Below are positions 250-21,100 of a stretch of DNA of 27,285 nucleotides, one piece after another (positions within the stretch are counted from its first letter, which is position 1; each line of letters begins with the position of its first letter). Position numbers and translations under genes: made by a program. Source of the DNA: a virus; IMG/VR virus record IMGVR_UViG_3300032331_001982, positions 1-27,285 of that record; one strand, 5' to 3'. The notes beneath the pieces were generated by a model. The model was not told the DNA's origin. It searched no databases and was given only the letters and a program-made list of their open reading frames with translations.

Positions 250-2598
250 TTATGATGTTTGTGATTTTTGATTTGCAATTTGTTGTTTCATTATTGAAGA
301 TTGTCCTGCAATATGAGTTGAATTTTCTTTAGCTGCCCCTTGGTCAGATGACACTTGCATCTTGGTATTATTATGAGCCATTGCAATTCTTTCATTTGAT
401 TCAATTCTCATTCTTTCTTTTTCTAAATCTCCTTGAATTCTCATTTGTTCTTTTTGCAATTCTAATTGTGCTTGCATTTGGAATCTTTGCGCTTCTGCTT
501 GTTGCGCAATCTGTGCTGCTTGTTGATTTCCTTGTTGCTGTGCTTGAATCTCTTGCATTCTCTGTTGAGCCTGTCTTTCTTTTTCTTTCTTCACTCTGTA
601 AGACCAAATCATTTGTGCTTCTTTAACATTCTTTGTGTTCACAAGAAGCACTGCATCAGATGTGTTTAATAGTCCGTTTTGGATATCCATCTGCATCATT
701 TGCATTAACCACGCTTTCTGGTCTTGAGTTGAGCGCTTTTCTAATTCTATTCCGTAATCTCTCCATGCTATGTCTGGGGAAATCTCAATAAACTGAAGCG
801 TGTTAGAATTTAATGCAGGCGCATATCCGCTTATACCATCTTTCTTTAACCCTTGCTGAGTTCTGCATAACATATCTTCAGCTAATCTTAACATAATATT
901 TTCTTCAGCAAATGCTAATGGATATAATGCTTCGTTTGTGCTTTGTTGTCCGCTTTCATAACCAGGTACTAATGTTTTTGATGAAGCCTGTCCTAGTGTT
1001 ACATCATTATAACCTGTCATCGTTTGGATAGCAGATATAGTATTTATCAAGTCATTGTAGAACATTTGCAATTCACTTGCTGCTGTGTTCTCAATTGGAA
1101 TTACAGGTCTCCAATTTGCGCTCTGTGGAGTTCCGCCATCTGTGTCACTTCTTCCCATTAACACACCTGTCTCAAAAAACATTTGTAACAATTCACTAGG
1201 CTGCATATCTTTTCCACCTTTTGTCATAGCTACCTTCTCTAATGCAGAAATATCAATCCACCATCCAGATGGTACAGCCCTATTTTTAAAGTTCTGTATT
1301 TTAAGCATTGTTAATTGATAGTCATCTATATAAGGGATTAGACGCTCCATCATCCCTTGAGCCTTCATTTGATAGAAGTTGTAAGCATAAAAGTTGTACG
1401 ACAATCTTGTCTTTGCTTTATTTTGCAAATTATTTGAACGCTTTTGGTCATAAGCCATTCCATAGTCATACACTTTGTCTGTGCCTATAATCCACTTACA
1501 TTTATATACATACTTAATTTTCTTTCTTGTGTACTTGTCAGATTTTTTACCTCTAGCAAAGTCGCTCTTTCTGAAGTCAGGGTTTCCGTTTTCGTCAGCA
1601 GAATCTCTGTATACTCTTTCATTGTAAGTATAGAATTCTATATCTAAAACTTTACACTTAAACTTATCGTATGGTTTCATCCAACCAGTTCCCAAACCTA
1701 ATAGTCTTGGGTTACCAAATTGCCCTGCAATAGTTGATGCAAATTGAGTCAAGTCATCATCTGTAAACATTGTATTTCCTTCATCATCTGTAACTGTTGC
1801 AAGTTCCACTAAAGGAACGTCTATGATTTCCCCAGCATGAACAATGTCTTTAAAGTCTCCGCTCTTGTCAAAACTTGTTATTACACACTCAGGGTCAACA
1901 ACTCTAAAGTATGGCTTGCCATCATCTCCTAACCAATCTTTTACCCCTGCTACTCCTAAGTCAAATAAATCTTCGTATATCTTTCTTCTTTTTGTTTTAT
2001 AATCATTTTGATACATTGCTAATTGGATAGCTAATTCTGCATCTTTACTTCTATTAAATTGTTCTCCAAATTCCATTCTCATTTCAAGCTCCTCCATATC
2101 TAAAGGTTCTCCAGTACTTGGTGCTAACATTGGATGTGATGCAAATTCTGGATTTTGTTGAACCATCAATTCCCTGACAGCCATCTTAGCTTTTAATTTA
2201 TTATAAAAGTCATCCATTTCAGACTTAGCTAATTGGTCTACAGGTGTAGCTACTATATTATATTCTTGGTTTAAAAGTCTAGAGATAGCCTTGTCTCTAT
2301 AAGTAGAAACTATAGACCTGATACTCCAATCTAAACTTAACCAAGTATTGTTGGTTGTTTCATCAACGCCTAGCCATTTTTTGTACTGTGAGTTTGGCTG
2401 CTTCCCTAACGCATACAATCTAAACTTAGAGTAATCTCCTCCATTACCAGAGAATATTCCTTTAGGATAAACGAACTGCCAATCGTAATAAGCAGCTCTA
2501 GCGTAATCTCTGCACCATTCCATTCCCTTCTTAGATGGGTCTATATTATTGTCGGGATAAGGATGCTGTCCTGCGCTACTGATTTGTTGATATTGCAT
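250..2598 (-). CDS. Portal protein, crAss-like type
   Basis: The 782-residue protein is the likely portal, the dodecameric ring at the capsid vertex through which terminase pumps DNA. It lies 19 bases after terminase. The N-terminal part (about 25-110) is rich in Trp and Tyr, as in other portals of this type. The most diagnostic stretch is about 495-560: NWRPVIPIEN, then a helix with repeated Ile and Met, then TGYNDVTLGQ, KTLVPGYESG and TNEAL. This matches the crAss-like portal pattern in which a Pro-rich entry leads to an 'I..I...TG.N.VT.G' helix and a 'TN.AL' segment. Residues from about 670 to the end form a Gln-rich, charged coiled coil, suited to a C-terminal barrel or crown. The start is supported by the leader AAAGCAAAGAAAA. 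The family call rests on pattern memory. Confidence 0.85.
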   Translation of the reverse strand: MQYQQISSAGQHPYPDNNIDPSKKGMEWCRDYARAAYYDWQFVYPKGIFSGNGGDYSKFRLYALGKQPNSQYKKWLGVDETTNNTWLSLDWSIRSIVSTYRDKAISRLLNQEYNIVATPVDQLAKSEMDDFYNKLKAKMAVRELMVQQNPEFASHPMLAPSTGEPLDMEELEMRMEFGEQFNRSKDAELAIQLAMYQNDYKTKRRKIYEDLFDLGVAGVKDWLGDDGKPYFRVVDPECVITSFDKSGDFKDIVHAGEIIDVPLVELATVTDDEGNTMFTDDDLTQFASTIAGQFGNPRLLGLGTGWMKPYDKFKCKVLDIEFYTYNERVYRDSADENGNPDFRKSDFARGKKSDKYTRKKIKYVYKCKWIIGTDKVYDYGMAYDQKRSNNLQNKAKTRLSYNFYAYNFYQMKAQGMMERLIPYIDDYQLTMLKIQNFKNRAVPSGWWIDISALEKVAMTKGGKDMQPSELLQMFFETGVLMGRSDTDGGTPQSANWRPVIPIENTAASELQMFYNDLINTISAIQTMTGYNDVTLGQASSKTLVPGYESGQQSTNEALYPLAFAEENIMLRLAEDMLCRTQQGLKKDGISGYAPALNSNTLQFIEISPDIAWRDYGIELEKRSTQDQKAWLMQMMQMDIQNGLLNTSDAVLLVNTKNVKEAQMIWSYRVKKEKERQAQQRMQEIQAQQQGNQQAAQIAQQAEAQRFQMQAQLELQKEQMRIQGDLEKERMRIESNERIAMAHNNTKMQVSSDQGAAKENSTHIAGQSSIMKQQIANQKSQTS

Positions 2599-2617: not shown

Positions 2618-4705
2618 TTAAAGTGCCTGTCTATAAGGCATTATTGATTCTACTGACTTTGTTGTTTCTTGAGGTTTATAATACCTCTTTGTTTTAGCTG
2701 CTATTAGCGTAAATCCTGCTGCCATAGCATCATCATACTTTTGTGTGTTGTCTACTTCAAATCCTAACCACCCTGATTTTTCTCCTAATAAGTCTGGGAA
2801 ATAGACCTTGTTAACATTCTTCTCAATATATGCTTCTGTATAATCGCATATTTGCTGAGTAGTCTTATTATTTCCCCCACCTGTATATATTCCAGGTTCT
2901 ACTTCATTAGGTAACCACATCAAAAAGTTACTACACAATTTATCTTCAAAAAACTTCTTCCATCCTGTTACGTTTCTCTCAAACAAAACTTGGCATCCAC
3001 AAAACCAAGCCATCTTTAATACATACTCATACTGCATATCTGTTGTTGCAGGTCTTCCACAAAACCTCATAACAAATGCGTCATTGTATTTATTATTTTC
3101 ATCAGCCAAATCTTCCATTTGATAAGCATAAGCCGCACAGTTTGATTTCCTATCATCTTTTGTTTTATCGTATTTGAAAGGGTCACATCCTATTCTAATA
3201 GCATAATTCCCATTAGGCGAAAAGTAACCTGCTCTCTGAAACACATTGTTCATTTCTTTTGGCATCCATCCTGCTACTTTCTCGTAAACTCCGTTTGGAT
3301 TATTTATCCACATTAGCTTGTTTACCTTCATTTCCCTGACACCATTGCCATGTATTACTTCTTTATAAAATTCGTCTCCGTTTTCCCACACTAAGTTACC
3401 TCTTTCTACGCAATCTTTATTAAAATTTAACCAATCTATTTGTTCGTTTAGTTTAAAAGTGTTATATACGCTTCCTTGAAGGCTTGACATAAACATTTCC
3501 CTTTCATCAAATGGATTCATTCTTATTTCTTCTTCAAGTAAAGTGCCTTCTAAGTTCATTCTTTTGCTTAGTAGATATTCTCTTGCTCCTAGTTTAACAT
3601 CTTCTTCTGTTAGGTCTCCTACTCCTACAAAGTTTTCTACTAAATAATCATATTGTTCGGGAGTTGGTGCTTCTATAACCGACATCCCGTAACGGTCTAT
3701 AAAACCCATGTATGAATCGTATGCAGGACTGAAGTACCTAACCATTCTGTTTGGAGTCCTTGGAAACTTTTTAAAGTCCGCCAATTCCCAAACCTTCTTA
3801 TACTCAGCACCTCCGCCCTTAGTCATATCATTCATTGTAGATGGGCATTCTATAAAACCAACTTTCTTCACACCCTTCACTAATGTTTTACTTACAATAG
3901 ACAAGAACTCTGAGAATGGAACATCCAATGGGAACTTACCGCCCTCATCAAATAAACCTCTTGTCAATCTACCCGAATCGTATGCATTCTTCCCTGGCGC
4001 TCTGTAATCAACCTTGCTTCTGTGTCCTGTGTCATTATCTATTGCGCCACCCTTAGTTCCCTTTATGTTTACTGACTTGTGTGCGAATACTAATTCTGTT
4101 ACACTATCCTTGTTGTTTAACTGCTTTGGTTTTAGAAAGACTGGGAGTTGGCGATAGCCAAATGCAACCATGTTCGTAAAGGCTACTTTAGCATCCTTCT
4201 CTGTCTTACTTGTTAAACCGCAGTTGCTATTTTTATAGAATACGCATTCGTATACAAGGTTAGATGTGCCTATTGATGTCTGTCCTTGTCTTCTTTTTTT
4301 ACCTATTAGAACACCAAGACACCATGGTACATTTTCCCAATGATTCAAATAAATAAAGTACCTTCTATCTAAATCTCTGTAGTCAGGGTATATGTCATCT
4401 TCAAGTTTCCAGAATTGTAAGTAGAAATAGTTTTTGCCTGTTATGTATGTCGGTACTCCGTTGTTCATAAACCAAAAACCATCCCTGCATCTGTTTACTT
4501 GTTCCATAGCATACTCTCTCTGTCTGCTGTCTAGTAGGGCATCTCCATTCTTGTCGTATTCTACTTGTTCAAAGAACTCTGGTAGTGGATGTCTTCTCCA
4601 ATACTGTTCTGATATGTCATCAGTTCCCCAACATTCTATATCTTCTATAGGCGGTTGTTCGGGAAGTTCTATATCAGTATTATATATAGTTATTACTTCT
4701 CCCAT
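2618..4705 (-). CDS. terL: Terminase large subunit (packaging ATPase and nuclease)
   Basis: The 695-residue protein carries both halves of a packaging motor. The ATPase half has a variant P-loop at 136-144 (KKRRQGQTS), a Walker B at 251-254 (LFDE, followed by GGKF) and a motif III-like segment at 282-290 (VGFIECPST). The RNase H-like nuclease half shows three acidic positions in the expected order: D508 in IGCDPF, E576 in VLFERN, and D658/D659 in KYDDAMAAGF. It would cut the DNA concatemer and translocate DNA into the prohead through the portal encoded next. Its ATG overlaps the stop of the preceding 144-residue gene as TAATG, so translation is probably coupled. The P-loop has Gln where Lys is usual before Thr-Ser. 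Lysines 136 and 137 may substitute, as in terminases with the Lys early in the loop. Confidence 0.95.
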   Translation of the reverse strand: MGEVITIYNTDIELPEQPPIEDIECWGTDDISEQYWRRHPLPEFFEQVEYDKNGDALLDSRQREYAMEQVNRCRDGFWFMNNGVPTYITGKNYFYLQFWKLEDDIYPDYRDLDRRYFIYLNHWENVPWCLGVLIGKKRRQGQTSIGTSNLVYECVFYKNSNCGLTSKTEKDAKVAFTNMVAFGYRQLPVFLKPKQLNNKDSVTELVFAHKSVNIKGTKGGAIDNDTGHRSKVDYRAPGKNAYDSGRLTRGLFDEGGKFPLDVPFSEFLSIVSKTLVKGVKKVGFIECPSTMNDMTKGGGAEYKKVWELADFKKFPRTPNRMVRYFSPAYDSYMGFIDRYGMSVIEAPTPEQYDYLVENFVGVGDLTEEDVKLGAREYLLSKRMNLEGTLLEEEIRMNPFDEREMFMSSLQGSVYNTFKLNEQIDWLNFNKDCVERGNLVWENGDEFYKEVIHGNGVREMKVNKLMWINNPNGVYEKVAGWMPKEMNNVFQRAGYFSPNGNYAIRIGCDPFKYDKTKDDRKSNCAAYAYQMEDLADENNKYNDAFVMRFCGRPATTDMQYEYVLKMAWFCGCQVLFERNVTGWKKFFEDKLCSNFLMWLPNEVEPGIYTGGGNNKTTQQICDYTEAYIEKNVNKVYFPDLLGEKSGWLGFEVDNTQKYDDAMAAGFTLIAAKTKRYYKPQETTKSVESIMPYRQAL

Positions 4706-5139
4706 TATCTTCTATCCATTGCTATACTGTTAACGAAAGGCTTTTTAGCTTCATCTTCTTCTTTCTTAAGAACACCTGCCATTTGTCCTAATTGTGTTAG
4801 GGAAATAGCGATTTCTGATGCCCCTGTCCACACAACTTTTAACCTATCAAAACTCTTTGACTTAGGGTCGTCTATGTCTAAGTCTTTTAGATTAATAGCG
4901 TTCATAAGTTCAGCCATTTCGTTTGCCTTTCTATTCAAGCTATAGTATAACTTAGCCACTCCGTTATCTTCATACTTAGCTAGTTTTTCTTCTAGCTTAG
5001 TTATTTTAGATTTTAAATACTCTGGAGAAGATTTGTCTACTATTTCTTCCTCCTTAACTGGAGTTGCTACTATTTCACCTCTTTTTATTTTCTTCTCTCT
5101 TGTCTTTTCTATTAGTTCGTCTAATTGTTCGTTTGTCAT
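4705..5139 (-). CDS. Small protein coupled to TerL; candidate terminase small subunit
   Basis: This 144-residue, highly charged protein has a predicted coiled coil at about 40-60 (a Lys/Leu/Glu heptad run starting near SPEYLKSKITKLEEKLAKYE). A more hydrophobic helix follows at about 105-125 (ASEIAISLTQLGQMAGVL). Its TAA overlaps the terminase ATG as TAATG, the usual sign of translational coupling, and the spot directly before terL is where small terminase subunits often sit. I see no clear helix-turn-helix, so the TerS idea rests on position and size. The ATG at 5139 follows the A-rich leader CAAAATCAAAAAAA. Confidence 0.8.
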   Translation of the reverse strand: MTNEQLDELIEKTREKKIKRGEIVATPVKEEEIVDKSSPEYLKSKITKLEEKLAKYEDNGVAKLYYSLNRKANEMAELMNAINLKDLDIDDPKSKSFDRLKVVWTGASEIAISLTQLGQMAGVLKKEEDEAKKPFVNSIAMDRR

Positions 5140-5210: not shown

Positions 5211-5711
5211 TTATTTATTTTTAAATGCTCTTTTCTCAAATTCATAAACCCAATTCTTATCTTCTTGGTCTATCGTTTCTAATTGATTAAGGAAAGTAGA
5301 ATATTCTGCTACAGCCATTCTTTGTGTTGTTCTATATTGTTGAAGAAAATCAAAGGTACATAAATCTTTTTTATTAAAGATGTCCATACTTATTTCTTCG
5401 TATGCTTCATACAAGTCATATTCCATTTGATATGCCTTTTCAATAGCATCAACTAGTCCAATTACTTTTTGTGGTGGTTCTACTGGTGCAAGCGTAGGTT
5501 GTACATTCCAGTCTGTTAAATATTTCTGTATTCCCTCTGCGTGTTTAAGTTCATCTTCAGCTTCTCCTCTAAAGTATTCAGCAGCCTTTAAGTAACCTAC
5601 ATTTTCACAGTAGTTTGTTACTTGTCTGTAGTAATAATGTGCAGCATATTCATCTCCTAATCTATCTATTAAAAGACCTGCAATTGCTGATGGTAATTTT
5701 ACTGGTGTCAT
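5211..5711 (-). CDS. Ferritin (non-haem, FtnA-like) in a phage late operon
   Basis: The 166-residue protein has the length and four-helix layout of bacterial ferritin, which oxidises Fe(II) and stores iron in a 24-subunit shell. Compared from memory with E. coli FtnA, the ferroxidase ligands appear present: E21, E54 and H57 (in EDELKHAEG), E97 (in AYQMEYD) and Q130 (in RTTQRMAVAE). The third-site glutamate next to the Gln appears to be Ala (A133), with E136 nearby. The block TFDFLQQYR resembles FtnA TFNFLQWYV. There is no signal peptide. The gene sits between the giant ejection protein and the packaging genes, and its ATG follows AATAAAATAAAAT. Whether it stores iron, protects DNA from oxidation or travels in the virion cannot be told from sequence. 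A different ferritin-fold enzyme is less likely because the spacing matches ferritin throughout. Confidence 0.85.
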   Translation of the reverse strand: MTPVKLPSAIAGLLIDRLGDEYAAHYYYRQVTNYCENVGYLKAAEYFRGEAEDELKHAEGIQKYLTDWNVQPTLAPVEPPQKVIGLVDAIEKAYQMEYDLYEAYEEISMDIFNKKDLCTFDFLQQYRTTQRMAVAEYSTFLNQLETIDQEDKNWVYEFEKRAFKNK

Positions 5712-5719
5712 ATTTTATT

Positions 5720-8700
5720 TTATTTTAAATGTAATTTAATCTTTGCTTTACTAATAGCTTTATTATGAGCTGCATCTATTTTATTCTGAAGTTTTTCTTT
5801 TAATCTATTTAATTCAGATTTTTCTTTAGGTGTTTCGGGAACTGCATCTATCATTTTTTGCAGTTTATTTATATCGCTACTATTTGCTGAATAAAAATGA
5901 TTGTATTCTTTTTTAGCATATTCTTTTACTAAAGGTACAAATTCATCATATTCTTTTTCAGACATTATTTTGTCTGGATGCTTATCATCATACTTTACTC
6001 TATAAGAATCTTTCTTATTTATTTCAGGTATATTTAATCCTTTCTCAGTAATGTTAGAATATGCTTCATATTCTTTATTACTTAACTTAGACTTATCCTC
6101 TTTTAATGTTTTTCTCCATAATGGAATTCCTTCTACTAATTTTTCTCCAAGACCAGATGTTTTCCTTTTAACTTCTTCTCCTTCTTGTCTATCTGTCCAA
6201 TCAGCAAGATTTTGCATTAATTGAGGTTCTATTATACTTTGACCAAGCGAAGATAAATATTCATCCATATAATCTCCTTTGTTTTCCATCGCTCTAGATA
6301 TACGCTCACCTGTTCCCAGAAATGGAACTTGTTTTGATAAACCCTTAAATACAGCAGGTATGCCTTCTCCATATTTAATTGCTTCTTCTCCCTTGCCTAT
6401 TTTTGCATCATAAGCCCTTCTCATTGTTGAACCAATCTGAAGCATTTCTAATAATGGGGTATGCATCATAAAGTGAGGCAATTTAGTTCCAAATAATTCT
6501 ATTTCCCCAGCTTCTAATTCATCTTTTTTTCTTTTGCCTGTATAATAACCGCCTATTGCTTGAGGATTCATATATCCTAAAAAGAATATAGCTGTACCTA
6601 TAGCTCCTTTTTTCATTGCTCTCATAAAATAATCAGCTTGCTCACCTGTCATCCCTTTCATCCCCCCTTTGGCTAATGTTGATAATGCTTTATATCCTGC
6701 AATTAATGGCACATATGATGATGCTTCTGCTACATAATTTGTAGGAACTTTTACAATTGGTAATGCAAATTTTAATGCACTTGCAAGGGCTGGATGTTCT
6801 TTATCAAGTTTTTTAACAAGATTTGAATATAAATTAGTAACTACATTGTCTTGCATAAATATAGCTCTTAAAGCATCATTGTATGCAGCAGCGCCTAATT
6901 CTTCATGAACCATTGGGTCTTCAATATCTCTACCTTCTTTCAATGCTTGTTCTGTTCTCATTTCTAAAGAACGGAAAAATTCAGCTTGTTTGGGAAGTAG
7001 TTTTATAGCACTATGCATTCTACCAAAGAACTCCATCCATTCTGGAACTTTAGATGCTTTTGGTTCTTTTTTTCCATATATATAGTCTATAGAACTCATA
7101 CCAGTTGCCATAACTTCCCTAACATCATCATGTGTCATTTTTTCAAACCATGTTCTAAATGCTCTAGCTTCTGCACTTGGACTAAGTCTACCTTCTCTAG
7201 CTGCTTTTTTAGATATACCTCTTACTCCAGGGATTAATGATAATGCTTGACCAACTACGTTTTCCATTCTTGTAACTAAACCTCTTGACAATGCAGCAGA
7301 ACCAATTTTACCTGCTGAAGGTAAACCTGAAAGAATAGCAAATCTATGCCATCCATGAAGATAATCCATACCTTTTTCTAATGGATTTCTTTGCTTGTTT
7401 TTTAAATCTTGTTTAAGGTAATCTATTTGAGTTTTTACTTTTCTTACATCTGCTTGCGCTTGCATTTTTTCTCTTGTCAGGGGAGTCTTGACTTTCTCTG
7501 TATCATATTTTCCCAAGACAATATCCTCTACATCTGATTTAGTTAAGTCTGGTATATCTCCTACTAAGTCTTGATGTATATTGTCTATTATTTTACTTAG
7601 TTTAGTTTCACCTGTTTCAGCATATAGCTTAACCATGTCATTTACATCTTTAACTATAGACTCTATTTGAGATTGTTTTTCAGGTGTCATGGGAACTTCT
7701 GCCGCTTTAGAAACAATTTGAGACTTACCTCCAATATTGGTTCTTTCTTTCATTCTTGCAAGTGTCTTCCCCCACTTATCTAAAATCTTATTTTTTACAT
7801 TTTCTTTTGCTTTTGCAAGTTCTTCTGGGGTTCTTACTACAACTCTAGTTTTAGCTAATTCAGATTGTTTTTTTGTACCTGCTTGTGCTTTTTCAAGTTT
7901 CTCAAGTTTTTTATTAGCTTCTTCTAATTTAGTTACTAAGTCTTTAAGTTTTTCTTGATATTCTTTGGGAACTTCTGCCCCACCATTTGCAGCCTTTAAT
8001 ATATTCATTTGAGTAACTAAAGAATAATCTTGTGCAATAAGCATTCTTCTTGCAGCTAATCCTAATCCTTGCTCATAACCAGATTTCCTTGCAGCTTCAT
8101 CATTCAAATCCATTTGGTCTTCTAATGCTTCCATTTGAGATTGAATAATATCAGCCTTGTCTGTTTCTCCTTTTTCCTGAGCTTCTAATAATTCTGCATT
8201 CTTTTTATTATATTCTTTAGAAATTCTCATTCTATCAATTAACAATACAGCACTTTCTTCAGCCTTTAATGGTCTTGGATTTTTAACTACTTCTGCTGCA
8301 AGCGTAAGTCCATTAATATCATTATTTGCAATCATTTCATTAGCAGTATCAAATACTTTACCAAATGAACGCTTTGCTTCTACTTCAACTTCAGCTAATC
8401 CTCTTTCACCTCTTTCTCTTTCTGTGACTGCATTTTTAATACTTGTAGTTGTCATCTCCTGATGAGCTTGGTCAACAATTTCCTCAACATCCTTATAATA
8501 ATCTCCAAACTCATCTTTTAAAATATCCTTTATTTCTTCTAATGATTTTCCTTCATCAACATATTCTTTTAAGATATCTTTCATGTCAGATATCTTTTTG
8601 TCTATAGGCATTTGAGATTTAGATGTTATTTCTGCTTTAGTTTCTCCTGTACCTTTTTGTAATTGTTCGGGAACTTTTGATATTTTAGTTGTGTGAAATT

Positions 8701-11700
8701 TAGAAACATCAGAAAATTCTGGTGGCAATATAATTGCTTTTTGTTCTGCAAATTTAAAGTCATCATAAACCTTACCTAAAAGGCTTTCAGCTTCATCAAT
8801 CATTTCTTGATTGCCTAGTTTCTTGCCTTCTTTTTTTAATGCAGATGCAGTCTTTATTGTTTCAAGAGTAGCATCATTAACTCCAGAATAATTAACCCAA
8901 GAATTTTGTCCTCTTGTCTCTGCTGATAATGCCCATTGAGCAAGTGGAGAAAACATTTTACTATGTTCAATCCATGCATTTTCTTCTCCATCTTTGCCAA
9001 ATTGATATCCTTCTACAGAGTGTCCATAATAATCATGTACTGCTCTGAATTTGTCGTTTGCAGTTAATCCTTCATTATCTTTTGTTTTGTTACCTAATTC
9101 AGTATGGTCATCACCGCCTTTATATACCCATAGATGATTGAAGTTGTGTACATCATCAAGCATTTCAAAGTTGTTCTCATAATTTCCCTCACCATTCTCA
9201 TGAAAAGTCACCTTTACAGGTAATGCATCATATTGCAGTTGAGTTTCTTTTATAAGTTGGTCATAAGATTTATGTACTAAGTCTTTATAATCCTTAATAT
9301 CATATTGTTTAAATATTTCTGGATGACTACTTTTATATTCAGAGTATATTCTTCTTTCTACATCTGTTTCTTTATATGTTGGGGAATTGACATCTTGCAA
9401 TTTAGGATATAACTTTGCAAGTTTTGTTTGCTGTACAGGGTCTGATGGCTTATACTTATGTGAAGTTACTTCTGGTAATCCTACAGATTCGTTATAACTA
9501 TTAGCAGCCTTTAATGAAGCATTAGTTTCAGGATTCTTTATTTTTGCTTTGGCTTCATTCCTTGCAGCAATCTGTTCGGACTCTGTTCTTTCTCTGCTTC
9601 CGATAGCATCTGTTCCGTTATACCGTACTTTTTCTGAATTAATTTTAACTTCTCCAGTTGTTCTTTCTTTTTCTGGTCTTCCATTTTTTTCTTCTTTAGA
9701 TTTTAAAGGTAATTCTTTTTCTTCTTGTATTTGAGATTTTGATTTAATTTGTTCGGGAATTCTTCCTGTTTCACTTAAATTCACTTCTTCTGGAACAAGA
9801 GATTTTACTAAATCTTTTCCTTTTGTTTCTACTGCTTTGTAAGGATTATCTTTTAATTTTTTAAATTCTGGATGATTATTTATGTTTGGGAAATAATCAG
9901 ATATATGATTAAATTCATTAAATATTCCAATAGGTTCTCCTTTTACAACATATGGATAACTTGAGTGGTCTGGAGCGTCAACATAAAATATACCTTTTCC
10001 CTCATTAACTAAATTTTTTCTTGTAGTATATATTTTAATTATCTTATTTCCCTTTTTGTCTGTAATATATTCAGGGGGCGCTATTTTAATTGCAGCAACT
10101 ATATCATGGTCTGCGGCATTATCTACTTCTGGTTCTGCCAAATGATTTGCTATATCCTCTAATGAAGCAACTGAATGTTGCTCTAAAAATTTATACCAAT
10201 CTCCTGTAGATTTTTTACCCCAAGAGTCTTTCATTATTGTACTCCAAAAACTTCCTCTCTTGTTAAATGATTCTTTATCTAAGGCAGTTTTTAATTGCTC
10301 TAAACTTGTTATTTCTTTTTTAGGTATTTTTTTGTTTTTACCTTCTATTCTTTTACCTTCTTTATCAAAAACTCCTATATTTAATTTTTTACCCGTATCA
10401 GTTCCATGCTCATTTAAAAAATATTCTCCAGATTTAAGTTGTTTACCACCTCTTACATCATTTAATTTGTTGTTTAGTTCTGTTAAAAATTCTTTTTCTG
10501 TTACTTTATTTTCTGTAACAGGTCTTATTAATTCAGCATATGCTGCTTCTTTAAAATTATTATTACCCCTGCTTCCTGTAGCTCTTGACATTCTGTATAC
10601 TAATGTAGCATCTTGGTCTGCTGCATTTTGAATCATTTCTCTTGCTGCTTTTATTGTTACAGATGCCCATCCTAATCCTGCTTCTCTTACCCCTTTTATA
10701 TAAGGGTAAAAAACACCGCCCATTAAATTAGATACTTTTACACCTGTTTTAGGATTATTATATTCCCCAACTTTAGTATGGTCAGACATAGTTACACTAT
10801 ATCGCTTCCCTATCATTGTGTTTTTATCTATAATATCATGGTCTTCCATATCTACACCTTCTTTTAGTGCAGATTTAGATTTTGGTTTTCTTCCTGTTGA
10901 GGGAAGTTCTTTTTCAAGTTTACCAGTAGCATTAAGATTTTTAGGTTCAAACAATTCCCCAGCATAATCTTTAGTTATATTGCTTAAATCTTGACCTTCT
11001 CTAATAGCTGTAGAAACATTATTTAAAAAATCAACTACATCTTTTGTATTCTTAACATCTTCAAATGGTATAAATTTACCTCCAGTTAATTTAGATACAA
11101 ATTCATTAATAATAGTAGCTATTTTTTCTAATGTAGATGGTTTTAAATTAGCAGCATTATCAGCTAATCCTGCGGTTAATTCCGCTAAATATTCTTCATG
11201 AGTATCGCCTTTTGATGCATAATGTTCTGTATCTGAAAATGCACTTAATCTTGCATTTGTTTCAGCACTTAATATTTTAGATATTCTATCTCTAAATGAT
11301 TGGAATAAAGCCTTATTTTCTCCAAATGATTTTAATAATACAGCATGAGTAACCTCATGAGCTATTGTTCTACCATTAGCCTTATCTAAATTTATATCTA
11401 TTCTAAAACCGCTAGTAGAACCATCTGGATTTAATATTTGACTAAAATTACCTGCACTGCTTTCTTTTCCTTTTACTTTATTCATTACATCATTAAAATC
11501 TTTTTCATTTTCGTGCAAATGAATGTCCATGTTAGGGAAAATAGACTTCAATGTTTTAATTGCTTTCCTTGCCTGTTCTATTACTTTAATCTTTAACTTA
11601 TTATCTTTATTTTTTTCTGCAAGTTCATTCAATGATTTTTCATCACTTGATTTAGTTCCTTTATTCTCTAATTCTTTTAATAATTCTTCTGATGTTTTAG

Positions 11701-14700
11701 GTTTACCTTCTTCTATTGTTTCTATTTTAGTTTCTCCTTTACTTTCTCCTTCAGGAACATTTTCTTCTATGTGTTCTGCAACAAATTTAGCTGCTTTACC
11801 TTTTGCCCCTTTTGCTACCTTACCTCTTTTTTTAGTTTTTAGTTCTTTATTAACAGCTTCTACTATTTTATTTTGTTTTTCTGTTCTTTCTGGTTCGGGA
11901 ACTTTTAGTGCATCATGGTAATCATTTGCAAGACTTTCATCTGTTACATTTTCCCTAGCACCATATTCTGCATTCTTTTTTAGATTATCAAATTGTTCAT
12001 CTGATAGGTTTTTTAGTTTAGATTGAGTATTTTCTCTTTCTTTTTGTTCGGGAAGTTCTGCTTTTTTTTCTAACAAAGGAGTAATTAGCTTATCATACTT
12101 ATCATAAATTTCATCAAATGCTTTTACATCTTCTTCATTAGTAAGTTTACTTCTATCTACTTTACCATCTACTATATACTTTTCTGCATTTGGTATTCTA
12201 TTTTTAAGTTCTGCTTGTTCTTCTGCTCTTAGTTTTTCTACTTCTGGTTGTTTGGGAAGTTCTGCTTCTGCTTTCTTAGGCTTTTCTATTGGAACTTCTA
12301 TCTTATCTTCTTTTACTACATCTTCATATACACTATCAAATGCTTCATCTGGAATTTCCCCAACAGTCTCAAGACTTAGTTGTATTCCTAAGTCTAATGC
12401 TTTTTCTGGGTCTGTTATAGTTACCTTATGTCCATCTTTTGTTTCAAATGTAGCTGACTTAACATTTCCATTCTCATCTAATTCTACTGGAGATTCTCCT
12501 TCTGGAACTTTTAAATCTCTATCAGTTATCGCTTTTTCCCCGACAATAATAGGTTCTTTTCCTTCTGATTCTATAACATAATTACCATCTTTAACTTTTA
12601 ACGTACCTTCTCCTGTTGTTCCATCTGCGAGGGTAACTGTTGCTGTACTTCCTTCTGATTGTTCAAGGGCTGGCTTAATTGTGATTTTTTGTTTAGCTGC
12701 AAGAGTACCTTCAACTGGCTTTCTTTCGGTAGTTTTGACAGTTTCAGTCTTTGTGATATTTTCATGGTTTTGTAATTTTAATATTAAAGGTTCTATTAAA
12801 TTAGCCGAATCTGGATTATCAGCTAATGTATTATAAAGTATATCTTCTGCTTCTTTAATTTCTCCTTCATTAATACTTTCATTTTTACTTATTCTATCTA
12901 CTATAGATTGTGTTTTATCTAATTGCTCTTGAGGAATTATTTCTTCTATTTTTTTCTCTTGTTTGGGAAGTTCTGTTTCTGTTGGTTTTACTCCTAAATT
13001 AGATAATTCTTCTTCTGTAAATTTAATTTCTTCGCCTTCTACTTTAGCCCCTTCTGCTACATTATAATCTTTTAAATCTTCAGCTTTATCTTTATTATCT
13101 AATATATTCTTTTGTTGTGTATTATATTCTTCTGCTTTTTCTACATATTTTTGAGATATATTAGGGTCAGATATATCTTGAGCCTTTCTCATCAATATAT
13201 CTTTTTTCATTCCTGCTGACAAATATTTTTGTTTTTGTTCAGTAGTTATATCAATACCAGATTCATTTAAATCATTTGTAATTGTAGTTGCTAATTTTAA
13301 ATTATTTAGCATTTCTTCTTTTTGTTCTGCAATTTTAGGATTTACTAACGCTTCGTCATTTATTAATTTTTCATATTTTGCTGGGTCATTTGCGATTTCC
13401 CATAACACCTTATGATTAGCCTTGCTACTACCTGTGCCTGCTGTTTCTAATAAAGCAAGTACTGGAGTTGTTAAGAATGTAGTTTTAGCCCCATTAACTG
13501 CATCATAAGCTAATTCTGTATATGATTTATCTTGATTTGTTGCACCAAATGCTTTATCAATAGCTTCATGATATAATTCAAACGCAGTCATAACTGCTGT
13601 AGTATTTGCATTTTTACCTAATAATGAAGTTGCTTTTGTAGTAAGTCCTTTTAATTTTGATATGGCTTCATTTTGAGTTATTTTATTATCTAGTAAATTA
13701 TTTATTATTACCTGAGTATCTTTTTTGAATGCACTTGAAAATGCCTTACCAATGGCTTTAGTTGGTAATAATTCGCCTAATAAAGCATCTCCTGCTGTTG
13801 CTGCAAGTGTATATCCTACTTGTTTTTCTACATTACCTGGGAATAATTCAATAGCTTTATCTCTATTATTACCTTCAAATGCAATTATAGAATTTATATA
13901 ATGCCCTCCTTCAACTCCTTTTAATACTTCTCCACCTAATATCAATGGAATTGTAAATCCAACAATATGTCCTGTGGCAGCAGAAATTGCATGAGTGCCT
14001 TTTAAATCTAAATTTACATTTGTTGCATTTTTAGATAATATATTATACAATCTTTGATTATCATTCATGCCATAACTCATCATTGGTAATCCTTCTATAG
14101 TTCTAGCACTTTTACCCATTTGCACATTAAATTCATCTAATGCATTTTCTAATACTCCTGCTGTTTTTATTTTTGCTTCGGGTATAATACCTCCAAATGG
14201 TATTCTTCCTATTCCTCTATATACTGACATTAATATACCAATATCACTTCTTATACTTTTCTCATAATCTTGAACGTCTGTATCAGATAATTTACCTTGC
14301 TGCTTTAATCTTTGTACTACATTATCTACTTGGTCTTGTGTGGGAATATTTACTAGCCAATTTGTTTCTCCCATATCTTCTAACCCCTGAGATATTATAG
14401 TTGAAATTCTAGTTTCATTTGCTTCAGGATATTTAAATCTAAATCCTTTTTTTGTCTCATTGTAAACTCTTGCTAAATCTGGATTAGTTTTAGCTGCTTC
14501 TATTACATCTGGATTATCTAGAAATGATTTAATAATATTACCTTTCATTGCTTCAGGTATTTGTCCACCCAATTGTTCTATTTGTTTTGCAACTAAAGGT
14601 GTTTGTAAAGACTGATAGTTTATCGCGGCTTTTTCAAAATCATCTTGAGTCCATTCGTTACCATTATTATAAACTGGAGGTTCGCCAGGAGATGTTTCTA

Positions 14701-16018
14701 CCTTACCTAATGCATCATTTAATCCTACCTTTTTAGCATAAATGTCATAAGCTGTTTTTATTGCAGGATTACTTAAATCTAATTTTGATGCAATTGAATT
14801 TAAATCAAAGCTATCTAAATCTGCATCACTTGTATATTTAGGATAATCTATTGTCCCGTCTTCCCTTACACCATACTTAATAACATCTTCTTGTGTATTA
14901 GGATGTTTTAAATCTAAATCTGTATCATTTAATTTGTTTTGTAAAAATTCCTTTGCATCTTTATCATCATAATTTTTATAAACTAAAGCGTCAATATGTT
15001 CATCTATTAATCCTAATGCTTTTTTTGTGTCTTCTTTCTCAACTCCTAATCTATCAACTCCTATATGTTTTTTAACATTATTTTTTATATTGTTACTGTA
15101 ATCTTCTACTTCTTGCAATCCTTCAGCTCCTTTAGAAAATTTATTTTGAGCGTTTTCTGTATATAAATAATCATTTACTTCTCCTTTTGTATTTCCTGTA
15201 TTTTTTTCAATTAAATTACCAATTTTGTATTGTGCTAAATATCCTAAATAAGCAGGATAGTCTTTTTCTCTTGTTACAGAAAGTATTTTTGGTAGGGAAT
15301 ATTTCCCCTCAGGCAATCCGTATTTTTTAGGGTCAAATTCTATTGCCCTTTTTGTTATATTTTCCCCCCAAGGAAAATCGTACAATTCTTTATTTAAATC
15401 TTTTTGAGTTTTCTCATCAGCATTTGTCGCCTTTAATTCAAAGTCTATTTTATCTAATTCTTTTTGAGCTTCTGCTGCTCCTACGATGTTTTCACTTGCT
15501 AGCGCATCTGCATATTTTTTTTGTGCTTTTGTTTTGTCAGAAATTAAGGATATAGGGTTGTTTTCTAATTTAACATTTTCCGTTTCCCCTATTATTATTT
15601 CTGCTTTTGGTCTAGGTTTTTTTTCTGTCAATTGTGAGGGAGAAGCTAAATCTGATTGTGTAGGGGAAGTTCCATCTTCCTCTTGAACACCAATTTTTGT
15701 AATCTGACCATCGTTTTTTTTTTGAGATAACGATTGTACAAATTCGTTTTTGCTTCCTATGTTATCTGCGGTATATCCTTCTTTTATAAGATTATCATAG
15801 AATTTATTTGCTTTTGCATTATCTGACATTGCTTTTGCAAATTCTTCTTTACTTCCCAAATTTCCAGTAGTATATCCATCAGAAATTAAATTGTCGTACA
15901 ATTTATGTGCCTTGGGAGGTTGTGGTTTTTGGTCTTGAGTAGTTTGTTCTGTTTGTTCCGTTTGTTCTATTTGGTCTACTTGTTGACCTTCTTCCATATT
16001 TTCAATTTGCTCTGCCAT
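5720..16018 (-). CDS. Giant polyvalent virion protein, probable DNA-ejection protein
   Basis: At 3432 residues this gene fills more than a third of the window. Order of parts: acidic Glu/Gln/Thr-rich N-terminus (1-35); two 28-residue repeats (39-98); a hydrophobic, Gly/Ala-rich zone (about 680-865); a long charged region with repeated ELPKQ, ELPEQ and VPEQ linkers (about 1000-1500); a zincin motif HEVTH (1554-1558); an unnamed domain with YPYIKGVREAGLGWAS (about 1735-2085); a His-rich domain with AVHDYYGH (about 2185-2432); coiled coils; and a C-terminal region with membrane-like stretches (about 3080-3160, LPIVKVPTNYVAEASSYVPL and AIGTAIFFLGYMNP). Several enzyme modules in one virion-carried chain is the hallmark of phage polyvalent proteins, which are injected with the DNA. 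No polymerase motif (DxDGD) was seen. It follows two smaller ejection-type genes. The exact role of each module is not known. Confidence 0.85.
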   Translation of the reverse strand: MAEQIENMEEGQQVDQIEQTEQTEQTTQDQKPQPPKAHKLYDNLISDGYTTGNLGSKEEFAKAMSDNAKANKFYDNLIKEGYTADNIGSKNEFVQSLSQKKNDGQITKIGVQEEDGTSPTQSDLASPSQLTEKKPRPKAEIIIGETENVKLENNPISLISDKTKAQKKYADALASENIVGAAEAQKELDKIDFELKATNADEKTQKDLNKELYDFPWGENITKRAIEFDPKKYGLPEGKYSLPKILSVTREKDYPAYLGYLAQYKIGNLIEKNTGNTKGEVNDYLYTENAQNKFSKGAEGLQEVEDYSNNIKNNVKKHIGVDRLGVEKEDTKKALGLIDEHIDALVYKNYDDKDAKEFLQNKLNDTDLDLKHPNTQEDVIKYGVREDGTIDYPKYTSDADLDSFDLNSIASKLDLSNPAIKTAYDIYAKKVGLNDALGKVETSPGEPPVYNNGNEWTQDDFEKAAINYQSLQTPLVAKQIEQLGGQIPEAMKGNIIKSFLDNPDVIEAAKTNPDLARVYNETKKGFRFKYPEANETRISTIISQGLEDMGETNWLVNIPTQDQVDNVVQRLKQQGKLSDTDVQDYEKSIRSDIGILMSVYRGIGRIPFGGIIPEAKIKTAGVLENALDEFNVQMGKSARTIEGLPMMSYGMNDNQRLYNILSKNATNVNLDLKGTHAISAATGHIVGFTIPLILGGEVLKGVEGGHYINSIIAFEGNNRDKAIELFPGNVEKQVGYTLAATAGDALLGELLPTKAIGKAFSSAFKKDTQVIINNLLDNKITQNEAISKLKGLTTKATSLLGKNANTTAVMTAFELYHEAIDKAFGATNQDKSYTELAYDAVNGAKTTFLTTPVLALLETAGTGSSKANHKVLWEIANDPAKYEKLINDEALVNPKIAEQKEEMLNNLKLATTITNDLNESGIDITTEQKQKYLSAGMKKDILMRKAQDISDPNISQKYVEKAEEYNTQQKNILDNKDKAEDLKDYNVAEGAKVEGEEIKFTEEELSNLGVKPTETELPKQEKKIEEIIPQEQLDKTQSIVDRISKNESINEGEIKEAEDILYNTLADNPDSANLIEPLILKLQNHENITKTETVKTTERKPVEGTLAAKQKITIKPALEQSEGSTATVTLADGTTGEGTLKVKDGNYVIESEGKEPIIVGEKAITDRDLKVPEGESPVELDENGNVKSATFETKDGHKVTITDPEKALDLGIQLSLETVGEIPDEAFDSVYEDVVKEDKIEVPIEKPKKAEAELPKQPEVEKLRAEEQAELKNRIPNAEKYIVDGKVDRSKLTNEEDVKAFDEIYDKYDKLITPLLEKKAELPEQKERENTQSKLKNLSDEQFDNLKKNAEYGARENVTDESLANDYHDALKVPEPERTEKQNKIVEAVNKELKTKKRGKVAKGAKGKAAKFVAEHIEENVPEGESKGETKIETIEEGKPKTSEELLKELENKGTKSSDEKSLNELAEKNKDNKLKIKVIEQARKAIKTLKSIFPNMDIHLHENEKDFNDVMNKVKGKESSAGNFSQILNPDGSTSGFRIDINLDKANGRTIAHEVTHAVLLKSFGENKALFQSFRDRISKILSAETNARLSAFSDTEHYASKGDTHEEYLAELTAGLADNAANLKPSTLEKIATIINEFVSKLTGGKFIPFEDVKNTKDVVDFLNNVSTAIREGQDLSNITKDYAGELFEPKNLNATGKLEKELPSTGRKPKSKSALKEGVDMEDHDIIDKNTMIGKRYSVTMSDHTKVGEYNNPKTGVKVSNLMGGVFYPYIKGVREAGLGWASVTIKAAREMIQNAADQDATLVYRMSRATGSRGNNNFKEAAYAELIRPVTENKVTEKEFLTELNNKLNDVRGGKQLKSGEYFLNEHGTDTGKKLNIGVFDKEGKRIEGKNKKIPKKEITSLEQLKTALDKESFNKRGSFWSTIMKDSWGKKSTGDWYKFLEQHSVASLEDIANHLAEPEVDNAADHDIVAAIKIAPPEYITDKKGNKIIKIYTTRKNLVNEGKGIFYVDAPDHSSYPYVVKGEPIGIFNEFNHISDYFPNINNHPEFKKLKDNPYKAVETKGKDLVKSLVPEEVNLSETGRIPEQIKSKSQIQEEKELPLKSKEEKNGRPEKERTTGEVKINSEKVRYNGTDAIGSRERTESEQIAARNEAKAKIKNPETNASLKAANSYNESVGLPEVTSHKYKPSDPVQQTKLAKLYPKLQDVNSPTYKETDVERRIYSEYKSSHPEIFKQYDIKDYKDLVHKSYDQLIKETQLQYDALPVKVTFHENGEGNYENNFEMLDDVHNFNHLWVYKGGDDHTELGNKTKDNEGLTANDKFRAVHDYYGHSVEGYQFGKDGEENAWIEHSKMFSPLAQWALSAETRGQNSWVNYSGVNDATLETIKTASALKKEGKKLGNQEMIDEAESLLGKVYDDFKFAEQKAIILPPEFSDVSKFHTTKISKVPEQLQKGTGETKAEITSKSQMPIDKKISDMKDILKEYVDEGKSLEEIKDILKDEFGDYYKDVEEIVDQAHQEMTTTSIKNAVTERERGERGLAEVEVEAKRSFGKVFDTANEMIANNDINGLTLAAEVVKNPRPLKAEESAVLLIDRMRISKEYNKKNAELLEAQEKGETDKADIIQSQMEALEDQMDLNDEAARKSGYEQGLGLAARRMLIAQDYSLVTQMNILKAANGGAEVPKEYQEKLKDLVTKLEEANKKLEKLEKAQAGTKKQSELAKTRVVVRTPEELAKAKENVKNKILDKWGKTLARMKERTNIGGKSQIVSKAAEVPMTPEKQSQIESIVKDVNDMVKLYAETGETKLSKIIDNIHQDLVGDIPDLTKSDVEDIVLGKYDTEKVKTPLTREKMQAQADVRKVKTQIDYLKQDLKNKQRNPLEKGMDYLHGWHRFAILSGLPSAGKIGSAALSRGLVTRMENVVGQALSLIPGVRGISKKAAREGRLSPSAEARAFRTWFEKMTHDDVREVMATGMSSIDYIYGKKEPKASKVPEWMEFFGRMHSAIKLLPKQAEFFRSLEMRTEQALKEGRDIEDPMVHEELGAAAYNDALRAIFMQDNVVTNLYSNLVKKLDKEHPALASALKFALPIVKVPTNYVAEASSYVPLIAGYKALSTLAKGGMKGMTGEQADYFMRAMKKGAIGTAIFFLGYMNPQAIGGYYTGKRKKDELEAGEIELFGTKLPHFMMHTPLLEMLQIGSTMRRAYDAKIGKGEEAIKYGEGIPAVFKGLSKQVPFLGTGERISRAMENKGDYMDEYLSSLGQSIIEPQLMQNLADWTDRQEGEEVKRKTSGLGEKLVEGIPLWRKTLKEDKSKLSNKEYEAYSNITEKGLNIPEINKKDSYRVKYDDKHPDKIMSEKEYDEFVPLVKEYAKKEYNHFYSANSSDINKLQKMIDAVPETPKEKSELNRLKEKLQNKIDAAHNKAISKAKIKLHLK
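6540..6780 (-). other. C-terminal membrane-interacting zone of the giant protein
   Basis: Residues about 3080-3160 hold two hydrophobic stretches, one around LPIVKVPTNYVAEASSYVPL and one around AIGTAIFFLGYMNPQAIGGYY, followed directly by the basic cluster TGKRKKDE. A Pro-Thr-Asn-rich hydrophobic segment like the first recurs near the C-terminus of many phage polyvalent ejection proteins. I infer that it inserts in or crosses the host membrane during DNA entry. Confidence 0.45.
8723..9466 (-). other. His-rich 'AVHDYYGH...ETRGQNSWVN' domain in the giant protein
   Basis: Residues about 2185-2432 form a compact conserved-looking domain. Motifs in order: a Tyr/Leu/Ile helix with KETQLQYDALP; NFNHLWVYKGGDD; NDKFRAVHDYYGHSVEG (H2328 and H2332); GEENAWIEHSKMF; ALSAETRGQNSWVN; and a closing FAEQKAIILPPEF. 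I recognise this signature as one that recurs in phage polyvalent and virion proteins but cannot name a reaction. The invariant-looking His, Asp and Glu residues suggest a metal site. Confidence 0.55.
11175..11420 (-). other. Zincin-like metallopeptidase motif (HEVTH) in the giant protein
   Basis: HEVTH lies at 11345-11359 (residues 1554-1558) inside GRTIAHEVTHAVLLKSFG, a standard zinc-binding helix HExxH with Glu as catalytic base. Further on, THEEYLAELTAGLAD offers a Glu as third zinc ligand, as in gluzincins. Such domains in polyvalent proteins are thought to cut host proteins or process the virion protein itself. The substrate here is unknown. Confidence 0.7.
15714..15723 (-). repeat. A10 homopolymer inside the giant gene
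   Basis: Ten consecutive T on the plus strand give A10 in codons 99-102 (Gln-Lys-Lys-Asn), right after the second N-terminal repeat. Slippage by one base in either direction meets a stop within about 40 codons, leaving only the first ~140 residues. It is a candidate hot spot for replication or transcription slippage, or for assembly error. Confidence 0.9.
15725..15904 (-). repeat. Two tandem ~28-residue repeats at the N-terminus of the giant protein
   Basis: Residues 39-66 and 72-98 share the pattern K(L/F)YDNLI, Gly-Tyr-Thr, (L/I)GSK(E/N)EF and a closing hydrophobic helix. They follow a low-complexity Glu-Gln-Thr tail at 12-30. Their place at the extreme N-terminus suggests a docking module that anchors the giant protein in the virion. 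That role is inference. Confidence 0.8.
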
Positions 16019-18152: not shown

Positions 18153-21100
18153 TTAAATTGTGTGTCCTTTACTAATTGTAGTTCCTAATTGTAATAATCT
18201 AAGTTGAAGAATTTCAGTTGTCGGGGAAAACTCGGTTAACACATACATATTGGTATTCCTCATAACCTCTGCTGTTAACAGCCCATCGTAAGTGTAACTC
18301 GTTCCCGTATCAACTCTCTTGTTCCTTAATATTACTGCGTACCAAACTCCTTCTAAATTTATAAAACTTGTTTCATCTAAATCACTCATTTGTAATTTAG
18401 GATAATTATTATAAAAATACACAAAATTTGGCACTAAATTACTTTCTGATACAAAATTATCATAAACTTTTGGAAGTTGTGGTAAAATGTTTGATGTGAA
18501 CATAATTTTGCTTGGGAAATGGTCACCAAAGAAAGTATTTTGATTAACTATATTCGTAGGCTGATTATGCTCGTAAACAAGTCCGTTTTTAAATGTAAAC
18601 AATCTATTTTGTAAAGTTATAAAGTTTTCTACTGTGAATGTGTACGCTCCTTGCCAATGTGGTTGAACAACAGCGCCTGTTCCTAGTTTGTATACTACAG
18701 TTTTACCTTCGTAGTCTAGGATGTCAAATGGATATACCATACCTGAATAGTCAGGTAGATAGCCTTGTGGTGGTGTATTTGAAAGTTTGGGAATTGATAC
18801 TAACAGCTCGTCATGCGATGGGTCAACCGTAGCAAAAACAAAAGGTCTGTCGCCAAATGCTTCTATTTCAGATTTTCCCATACTTAAATATTTCAAACAC
18901 CAATTCTTCCAAAATCTACTCATCTTTACAGCAGATATATTATCTAATCCATTTGCACTATACTGAACCCATCTTCCATTACTTGCATCTAAGAAATAAA
19001 CATTACCACGATACTGAACAACTGATGCAGGGTCTACACAGCCATAATTTCCCTTCATAGTATTAATAGTACTAATCACATTTTGAGCGCCACTAAAGAA
19101 TTGAACAGCGCCAGTAGAATCCGTTATCTGCGTTTCCCCGAGATACATAGAATTAGTTTCTACACTACATAATGATAGCATTACACTACCCTGGTCTTGA
19201 ACCTTAGATGTTAGTTGAAGTTTATTTATAGAACCACAATCATCTGGCACATAAGTATCATTACCTAATCTAAATGTACTAGAGCCATTTATTTGAGTTC
19301 CTGTAATATAAGTATCACTCCAAGCTATATTTGTATTTTTTACTGATTGTCCTAATCTTGTCACTACATTCACTTTGCCTGCATCTGATTCCCAGTCTCT
19401 CCAATATAAATCATTTGGAGACATAGCATTTGCTTTATAAGTTGTGCTAACGCCAAAACTTCTGTATAATAAATACGTATCTCCATTAAATTGTCCATTT
19501 AAATTACTATAAGACCTAATATTAGTTTTTGGATTTAATATACTATATATTTCACCCATTTCGTAATAGTTTTCTTGGTCTGATGTTTTATAAGGAGTAT
19601 ATATTTCAAACACATAAGTATAGCTAGAAATATTACCTGCACTAGATATATCTTGTGCTTTTAATAATATATAATTACCATTTTGTCCAATAACAGGAAT
19701 TCTAAATGATGTATTATCACTTCTAGTTAACAAGCATATATCCCCTTCAGTATAGGTATATCCAAGACCAGCGGCTATTAATGAATCTGTATTTAAGCCT
19801 ATAGCTAAAGCAAAAGCAGGACTATAAATATTATTTACAGCAGTCCAATCTCCAGTTGATGTTTTGCCCATATACTTAGGCAAATTTGCAAAACCCTGCA
19901 CAAAAAATCTTGTTCTTAAGTTAAGCGTTTTTACTACTGTATAATAATAAGCCCATTCTGGAATTTCATCTAATGCATTAGTATTATCTAAACTCCAATT
20001 TATTGTATTTAATGCAGTACTATATGCAAAGTCTCTTGCTGGTGTTGTTGGGGAAGATGGGGTATAACGATATATGTTTACAACTGCATTATAAAATCCA
20101 TAATCGCCTACCGCCTCTGATACTGTTATAGTAGTAGACCCAACACTTACTACGGTGTATGTATCATTTAATATTGTTGAAATTATCTCAACCTTATCAT
20201 CAGGTCGAATATATTGCGTTATATTGCTTCCTACTCCAAAATCAATTGTATGTGGTTCTATACCTGCTACTTGATTACTAAAAGAATTAAATAATGTATA
20301 TTTTGAATCATTTTTTACAACACCGCATTTTCTCATTGCGTAATCATAAAAAACCACTCCGCAAGCATACGATGATAGTTGAGGGTATATATTAAAATTC
20401 TGAGTACCAGACATACCTGTTACAGGTATAAATGGCAAATAAGTTCCATTGAAATTTGTAGTTCCAACTGGAGTTAAGTTGCCAATAAATTCATATCTGC
20501 TATAAGGTGGAGTATCTCTTGTTGCTATTGGTTGAAGAAATTGGTTTGCAGGCTCTGCTTCTATTGATTGAAATACTGCGGATTCTGTTGCCCCTCTAAA
20601 ATTTAAATTAAAAATTGTTGTAGTTAATGGTATTGCACCAGGGTACGGATATGGGTCTGCTGGGGTTCTTACTATAGTTGAGACTAATTCATAAAAACCA
20701 GTTGCAATTGTTCCATTTATATTTATTGTTCCGTAAATCAAATATGAAAAATATTCTTTTCCAGAATTAACTCTGCCACCACCAAAAATATGACAAGTAT
20801 GCAATTGCATATTGATTGTTGTAGATGCTGTTTGTATCGTATTCCCAAGACTTATTTGTAATGATGTCTGTTTTGGAGTATCATAACCTTGTGTATTATT
20901 AGCTAAAAAATATCTACTTTTTGCTACTTCGTGTGTTTGGGAAAATATGGGAACTAAATCAAACGCTCTAATAACATCATCAACAGGTAAAAATGCACCC
21001 GTTATGTCATTATAGAAAATATAAGATAAAACACTAGAAGTTAATCCGCTATTATGATTTTGTATTTCTAACAAATCCGTAGGATTGTCTTTATTCCATG

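Follow-up and report, generated by a model that had tools for sequence, protein, structure and literature searches.

A probable H-type ferritin of a phage-only branch is encoded with head, packaging and ejection-like genes

Our analysis indicates that the virus studied here probably encodes its own H-type (two-iron-site) ferroxidase ferritin, which is specified together with a giant ejection-like protein, the terminase and the portal protein and would be made with the head proteins. The window, meaning the whole stretch of DNA that was analyzed, is an IMG/VR virus record of 27,285 bases. The ferritin open reading frame (ORF) is exactly where the original prediction had placed it, and it is on the minus strand (Table 1). 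Its product passed the curated cut-off of the Pfam Ferritin family (PF00210; 78.2 bits against a cut-off of 24.5, E 7.7e-22) and matched 76 PDB sequences at E<=1e-3, with V. cholerae ferritin (3qz3) as the top match (E 1.8e-13).

Table 1. Features of the window that bear on the ferritin gene and its predicted active site
Feature	Position	Strand	Basis or remark
Type-1 phage ferritin gene	5211..5711	minus	166 aa, ATG start; Pfam, PDB matches, alignment, model
Codon E21, diiron site A ligand (= EcFtnA E17)	5649..5651	minus	Alignment; invariant in 63 phage + 37 cellular ferritins
Codon Y28, conserved ferroxidase tyrosine (= EcFtnA Y24)	5628..5630	minus	Tyrosine in 47/47 type-1; type-2 has W or Y
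Codon E50, phage-specific invariant residue, one turn off diiron ligands	5562..5564	minus	E in 63/63 phage, 1/37 cellular
Codon E54, bridging ligand (= EcFtnA E50)	5550..5552	minus	Alignment
Codon H57, site A ligand (= EcFtnA H53)	5541..5543	minus	Alignment
Codon E97, site B ligand (= EcFtnA E94)	5421..5423	minus	Alignment
Codon Q130 (= EcFtnA Q127)	5322..5324	minus	Alignment
Giant protein, 3432 aa, directly upstream of ferritin; candidate ejection/cargo, HEVTH zincin motif	5720..16018	minus	
144-aa ORF between ferritin and TerL	4705..5139	minus	Conserved in lineage
Terminase large subunit (TerL)	2618..4705	minus	PHROG 6681, E 5e-86
Portal protein	250..2598	minus	PHROG 6547, E 5e-70

The ferritin gene comes directly after the giant ORF, from which it is separated by 8 bp, and it is followed by the 144-aa ORF, TerL and portal genes, all in the same orientation. 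Promoter-like sites in the region of the giant, ferritin and 144-aa ORFs were no more common than in shuffled sequences, and a terminator scan found no terminator-like site between these ORFs. The ferritin had been described as lying between the giant ejection protein and the terminase genes. This placement held, except that the 144-aa ORF separates the ferritin from TerL. Gene position was the one observation bearing on the further claim that the ferritin is made late with virion proteins, and on that ground its expression may be late. The HEVTH zincin motif of the giant protein is near residue 1554; the earlier suggestion that the ferritin holds iron for this neighboring zincin found no support in our analysis. 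Conservation of the giant protein among relatives was very uneven (22–76% in pieces), which suggests a mosaic polyvalent or ejection protein.

Several other proteins of the window were also inspected. With regard to a possible place of the phage in Crassvirales, the TerLs nearest to that of the window were from Elemovirus and Cellulophaga phages (24–29% identity), and a crAss-type muzzle C-terminal domain scored 25.5 bits, below the cut-off of 27. A muzzle-like virion protein of 1643 aa (18153-23084, minus) contains a Fibrobacter succinogenes major domain at residues 255–442 (E 3e-56). This domain is known mainly from surface proteins of Bacteroidota and Fibrobacteres, and it was perhaps acquired for host binding. 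At the contig end (26666-27283, minus) there is a protein with a GroES-like C-terminal domain (PHROG 3188).

An H-type assignment depends on the residues of the ferroxidase center. E21, Y28, E54, H57, E97 and Q130 of the window ferritin aligned one for one with E17, Y24, E50, H53, E94 and Q127 of E. coli FtnA, and the ligands also aligned with human H ferritin, bearing out the prediction that E21, E54, H57, E97 and Q130 are intact. The residues of the third FtnA site (E126, E129 and E130) are T129, M132 and A133 in the window ferritin, and all 63 phage ferritins compared have A or S where FtnA has E130. With its third site replaced in this way, the active site is of the two-iron H type.

The structural prediction pointed to the same class. 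An AlphaFold2 model from a 48-sequence phage alignment (pLDDT 96.7) contained five helices at residues 8–38, 41–67, 86–113, 117–144 and 152–162, including a short helix E. Foldseek gave a TM of about 0.9 against bacterial ferritins (3qz3, rmsd 1.1), and VIA-align gave Z values of 23.5–24.1 to H, M and bacterial ferritins over 160–166 residues; cage ferritins superposed on the model over its full length, helix E included. Features that define H-type ferritins were found both in the sequence (intrasubunit E, E, H and E ligands plus Y and Q) and in the model (four-helix bundle, long BC loop and short helix E). Other subfamilies were considered and rejected. The protein scored 40.3 bits against the bacterial FtnA equivalog NCBIfam NF007638, whose cut-off is 178 bits, and the third iron site of FtnA is absent. 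Helix D has Q130-R-M-A133 rather than the E-x-x-H of bacterioferritin (Bfr), and the ligands are all in one chain rather than split between two subunits as in Dps, from which the predicted helix E also distinguishes it. Helix E and homology together make it likely that the window ferritin forms a 24-subunit iron-oxidizing, iron-storing cage.

Close relatives (71–86% identity) were found on 8 IMG/VR contigs. A family query of IMG/VR identified 130 viral loci encoding relatives, many of them on contigs of 100–385 kb; among the 80 loci that were kept, type-1 relatives outside the close group were about 42–52% identical to the window ferritin. When 50,697 annotated phage records, including the related Cellulophaga phages, were searched by tblastn with the window ferritin and the L010 ferritin, no match was obtained, while E. 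coli FtnA identified six ferritin places in the same set, all in unannotated records. Scanning 84,980 cellular species with two patterns of family peptides revealed no relative. Because distant cellular relatives would escape a scan limited to two patterns, profile searches were added. The sample for these comprised 1,371 genomes, drawn from Bacteroidota and three further phyla; its best cellular ferritin scored 74.5 bits on the family profile, as compared with 203 bits for the weakest type-1 phage ferritin, and the top cellular matches that were inspected were ordinary FtnA-type proteins, nearly all with the third-site motif. A second type of phage ferritin (type 2) is about 25% identical to type 1, scored 51–82 bits on the family profile and gave a model with a like fold (pLDDT 95.8). 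In trees of 99–100 rows, which have long branches and a limited cellular sample, type 2 was the sister of type 1, and a branch with support of 96/89 and 100/98 separated the two together from every non-heme cellular ferritin in the sample. From these data we conclude that the window ferritin belongs, as type 1, to a branch that to date has members only in phages. The tree led us to reject recent acquisition from a Bacteroidota host, and the comparison with host-type ferritins, a check that the original prediction had proposed, thus spoke against recent capture.

Both phage types share N33, E50, Y104 and A/S133 (63/63), and this signature was nearly absent from cellular ferritins, which have mostly A/S, Q/H, I and E at these positions; at E50 in particular, nearly all cellular ferritins have Q or H. 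Conservation of H25 in the phage proteins is partly a product of the search pattern. N33, E50 and Y104 could alter the chemistry of the site. One may go further and read the protein as a ferritin-like diiron enzyme that uses these three residues on a substrate other than stored iron, a reading with which the signature, the long branch between phage and cellular ferritins and an equivalog score of 40 bits, far under the NCBI cut-off, are all consistent. However, Y28, Q130 and every site A and B ligand are as in iron-storing ferritins, and the full-length superposition of the predicted model on cage ferritins, helix E included, also argues against it. We consider a different substrate improbable and retain the assignment as an iron-oxidizing ferritin.

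Seven other close-relative contigs have the order giant gene, ferritin, sometimes a small ORF, 144-aa ORF and TerL. In L087, L088, L089 and L245 a type-2 ferritin gene is shifted downstream by one place, so that the 144-aa-type ORF precedes it and TerL follows (TerL identity to the window is about 74% in L087, L088 and L089). A third group of 20 contigs (TerL identity about 52%) has a type-2 gene flanked by the portal gene and the gene of a 382-aa protein, beyond which is the major capsid protein (MCP) gene; this order was checked in the sequences of G005 and G019 and inferred from neighbor sizes in the rest, and the MCP was assigned by Pfam SU10_MCP. The ferritin slots are therefore three (giant-ferritin-144-aa ORF-TerL, giant-144-aa ORF-ferritin-TerL and portal-ferritin-382 aa-MCP), with two diverged types between them. 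In G004, G020 and G026 the same neighbors enclose a slot that is precisely empty of ferritin, indicating that the gene is dispensable, and ferritin was absent from Elemovirus. Thus, ferritin was gained, lost, moved and replaced in this lineage, yet kept in that operon.

In two further contigs the linkage was to giant proteins. The more divergent phage G046 has a ferritin, 71% identical to that of the window, directly after a giant protein, with TerL, portal and MCP genes not adjacent, and the terminase is consequently less likely as the functional partner. In L248 a type-2 ferritin is flanked by two giant ORFs (L248:309-10157), of which one has a virion-RNA-polymerase-like match and the other a Zeta-toxin-like kinase domain. 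Annotation of neighbors in the large phages revealed no single conserved partner gene beside ferritin. A PHROG 7595 protein, exemplified by L010:8452-9576 with its conserved C-terminal PLNKPKRGGSKKFYVYV...SGYW domain, was within 5 kb of ferritin in 21 large-phage contigs and immediately before it in 14.

Where dS was unsaturated, ferritin dN/dS was mostly 0.06–0.15, close to the values for TerL, which indicates that the gene is under purifying selection. Pairwise distances of the two genes disagreed: dN was 0.005 for ferritin and 0.105 for TerL between L004 and L005, as opposed to 0.117 and 0.017 between L002 and L008. This disagreement points to exchange of ferritin by recombination among related phages. 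The patchy distribution, with ferritin missing from Elemovirus and some lineage members, is what might be expected of a recent stray host gene or a functionless remnant. However, such an origin is scarcely credible given the low dN/dS, the invariant ligands, the family-wide distribution and the failure to find a close cellular relative in the species and genomes searched. Nor is the gene absent from all relatives, as a recent stray insertion would be, since it occupies the same place in the 7 contigs and other slots of the operon in further ones. The description of a working ferritin rather than a remnant is thus upheld by the intact ligands of 63 non-redundant phage ferritins, purifying selection and a confident predicted model, from which activity is inferred.

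As in the ferritin family generally, 24 subunits would assemble into a cage, the E21/E54/H57/E97 site would use O2 or H2O2 to oxidize Fe(II), and the oxidized iron would be kept in the cage as mineral. The infected cell would thereby contain less free Fe(II) and less peroxide during DNA packaging. The ferritin might act there exclusively, as the product of an auxiliary metabolic gene, tying up Fe(II) or peroxide, with no virion role and with its place in the head operon setting the timing. The intact ferroxidase site and the patchy presence of the gene are consistent with this reading, as is the interpretation of phage Dps and Mn-catalase in terms of oxidative-stress tolerance (PMC8008677). 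By itself, however, it does not account for the recurrent linkage to giant or cargo genes and head genes, nor for the capsid-targeting-like N termini of relatives described below, and we regard it as a substantial possibility that stops somewhat short of even.

A less certain step, possible but rather doubtful, would be packaging of the ferritin in the head alongside the giant cargo protein, whereby protection or iron would travel with the virion. Packaged in this way, and perhaps ejected as subunits, it would shield DNA, whether packaged or incoming, from Fenton chemistry or carry iron to the next host. Virion cargo was among the options of the original prediction, and it gained some indirect support here. 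Favoring it are the association of ferritin with giant ejection-like proteins rather than with packaging genes as such (G046 and L248), the slot beside portal and MCP in the third group, and the crAss001 virion, a precedent whose head and tail contain about 5.5 MDa of cargo (PMC10172136). The crAss001 tail has constrictions under 50 A (PMC10172136). An intact 24-mer cage could not pass through openings of this width, so ejection past them would require unfolding or disassembly.

The large-phage relatives provided a further hint of packaging. Many of their type-1 ferritins have an N-terminal extension of about 20–45 aa, such as MKTFQTFKENGITINE followed by A in L080. Capsid-targeting cleavage in T4 follows an (I/L)xE rule. 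Capsid-targeting sequences of T4 internal proteins such as IPIII are cut off by the prohead protease (PMC9026906), and the prohead proteases of T4 and giant phages cleave after glutamate (PMC5694885). The (I/L)xE motif was present in 24/31 large-phage ferritin extensions, as compared with 8.2 +- 2.4 in internal windows of proteins from the same contigs. Grouped by core identity, 3.95 of 5 groups contained the motif, against 1.57 +- 0.53 in shuffles; grouping by shared 3-mers merged all extensions into one group. Of 16 large-phage contigs tested, 15 encode an S77 prohead protease, which scored above the cut-off in 14, and a gp23-type MCP was found in 13. These T4-like N termini, together with the protease, favor packaging in the large phages. 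On the other side, 7/31 long extensions were without the motif, and some large-phage ferritins have no extension. Moreover, the window ferritin begins MTPVKLPS and has no extension, and neither S77 protease nor gp23-type MCP was found in five contigs of its lineage. We therefore rejected a T4-type capsid-targeted internal protein for the window, and the cargo hint from the large phages does not carry over to it directly; packaging in its lineage would have to proceed by other means, perhaps through the giant protein. A broader proposal, that an old phage ferritin family is carried inside virions, with T4-like N-terminal peptides targeting the head in large phages and the giant cargo protein serving in the window lineage, and that iron-oxidizing cages or their subunits guard the DNA when packaged or incoming, or else deliver iron to the next cell, seems to us somewhat unlikely.

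Peptides of this kind were not confined to ferritins. Many ORFs in six of the large-phage contigs (L044, L034, L055, L056, L031 and L080) open with near-identical T4-like capsid-targeting peptides (MKKVKLFEQFLNE and similar), and 85/770 of their ORFs matched a strict capsid-targeting-like pattern, which suggests that these phages may have a very large set of packaged proteins.

Discussion of iron in phages has so far centered on iron bound to the tail (the Ferrojan horse idea) or on the response of the host. A widespread phage-only ferritin under strong selection, recurrent among head and ejection genes, suggests that phages may handle iron themselves while making particles; it makes phage management of iron and oxidative damage during assembly testable, as well as whether virions carry iron proteins. 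The phage protein also offers biochemistry a new natural ferroxidase variant, with the third site absent and E50, Y104 and N33 present.

Ferritin and Dps genes in viruses were already known: gut phages have Dps and Mn-catalase genes (PMC8008677), and giant viruses (NCLDV) have ferritin genes (PMC7136201). Automatic "Ftn" names are already on proteins of uncultured phages. The open-access literature searched contained no account of this phage-only ferritin family, of its residue signature, of where it sits in the head operon or of the N-terminal extensions, and within that literature these are new. Among database entries, the phage "Ftn" protein A0A6J5MFB8 of BFVD is 45% identical to the window ferritin and probably of type 1, BFVD A0A8D9C9X5 is a phage or giant-virus ferritin-like protein, and PHROG 16594, listed there as of unknown function, was matched by both phage types. 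Bacterial non-heme FtnA (E. coli, and V. cholerae 3qz3) resembles the window ferritin in fold, five helices, site A and B ligands, Y24 and Q127, whereas identity is about 22–25% and the window protein differs in having no third iron site and in having N33, E50 and Y104. Eukaryotic H ferritin shares with it the two-site ferroxidase center without site C and the alanine at the FtnA E130 position, and human FTH1 and frog M were the best VIA matches of the model (Z 23.5–24.1), but identity is about 20%, with no sign of shared descent beyond the superfamily. Gut-phage Dps belongs to a different ferritin subfamily. T4 internal proteins of the IPIII type (PMC9026906) resemble the large-phage ferritins in the short (I/L)xE-type N-terminal extension and the S77 protease, a likeness that we take as an analogy.
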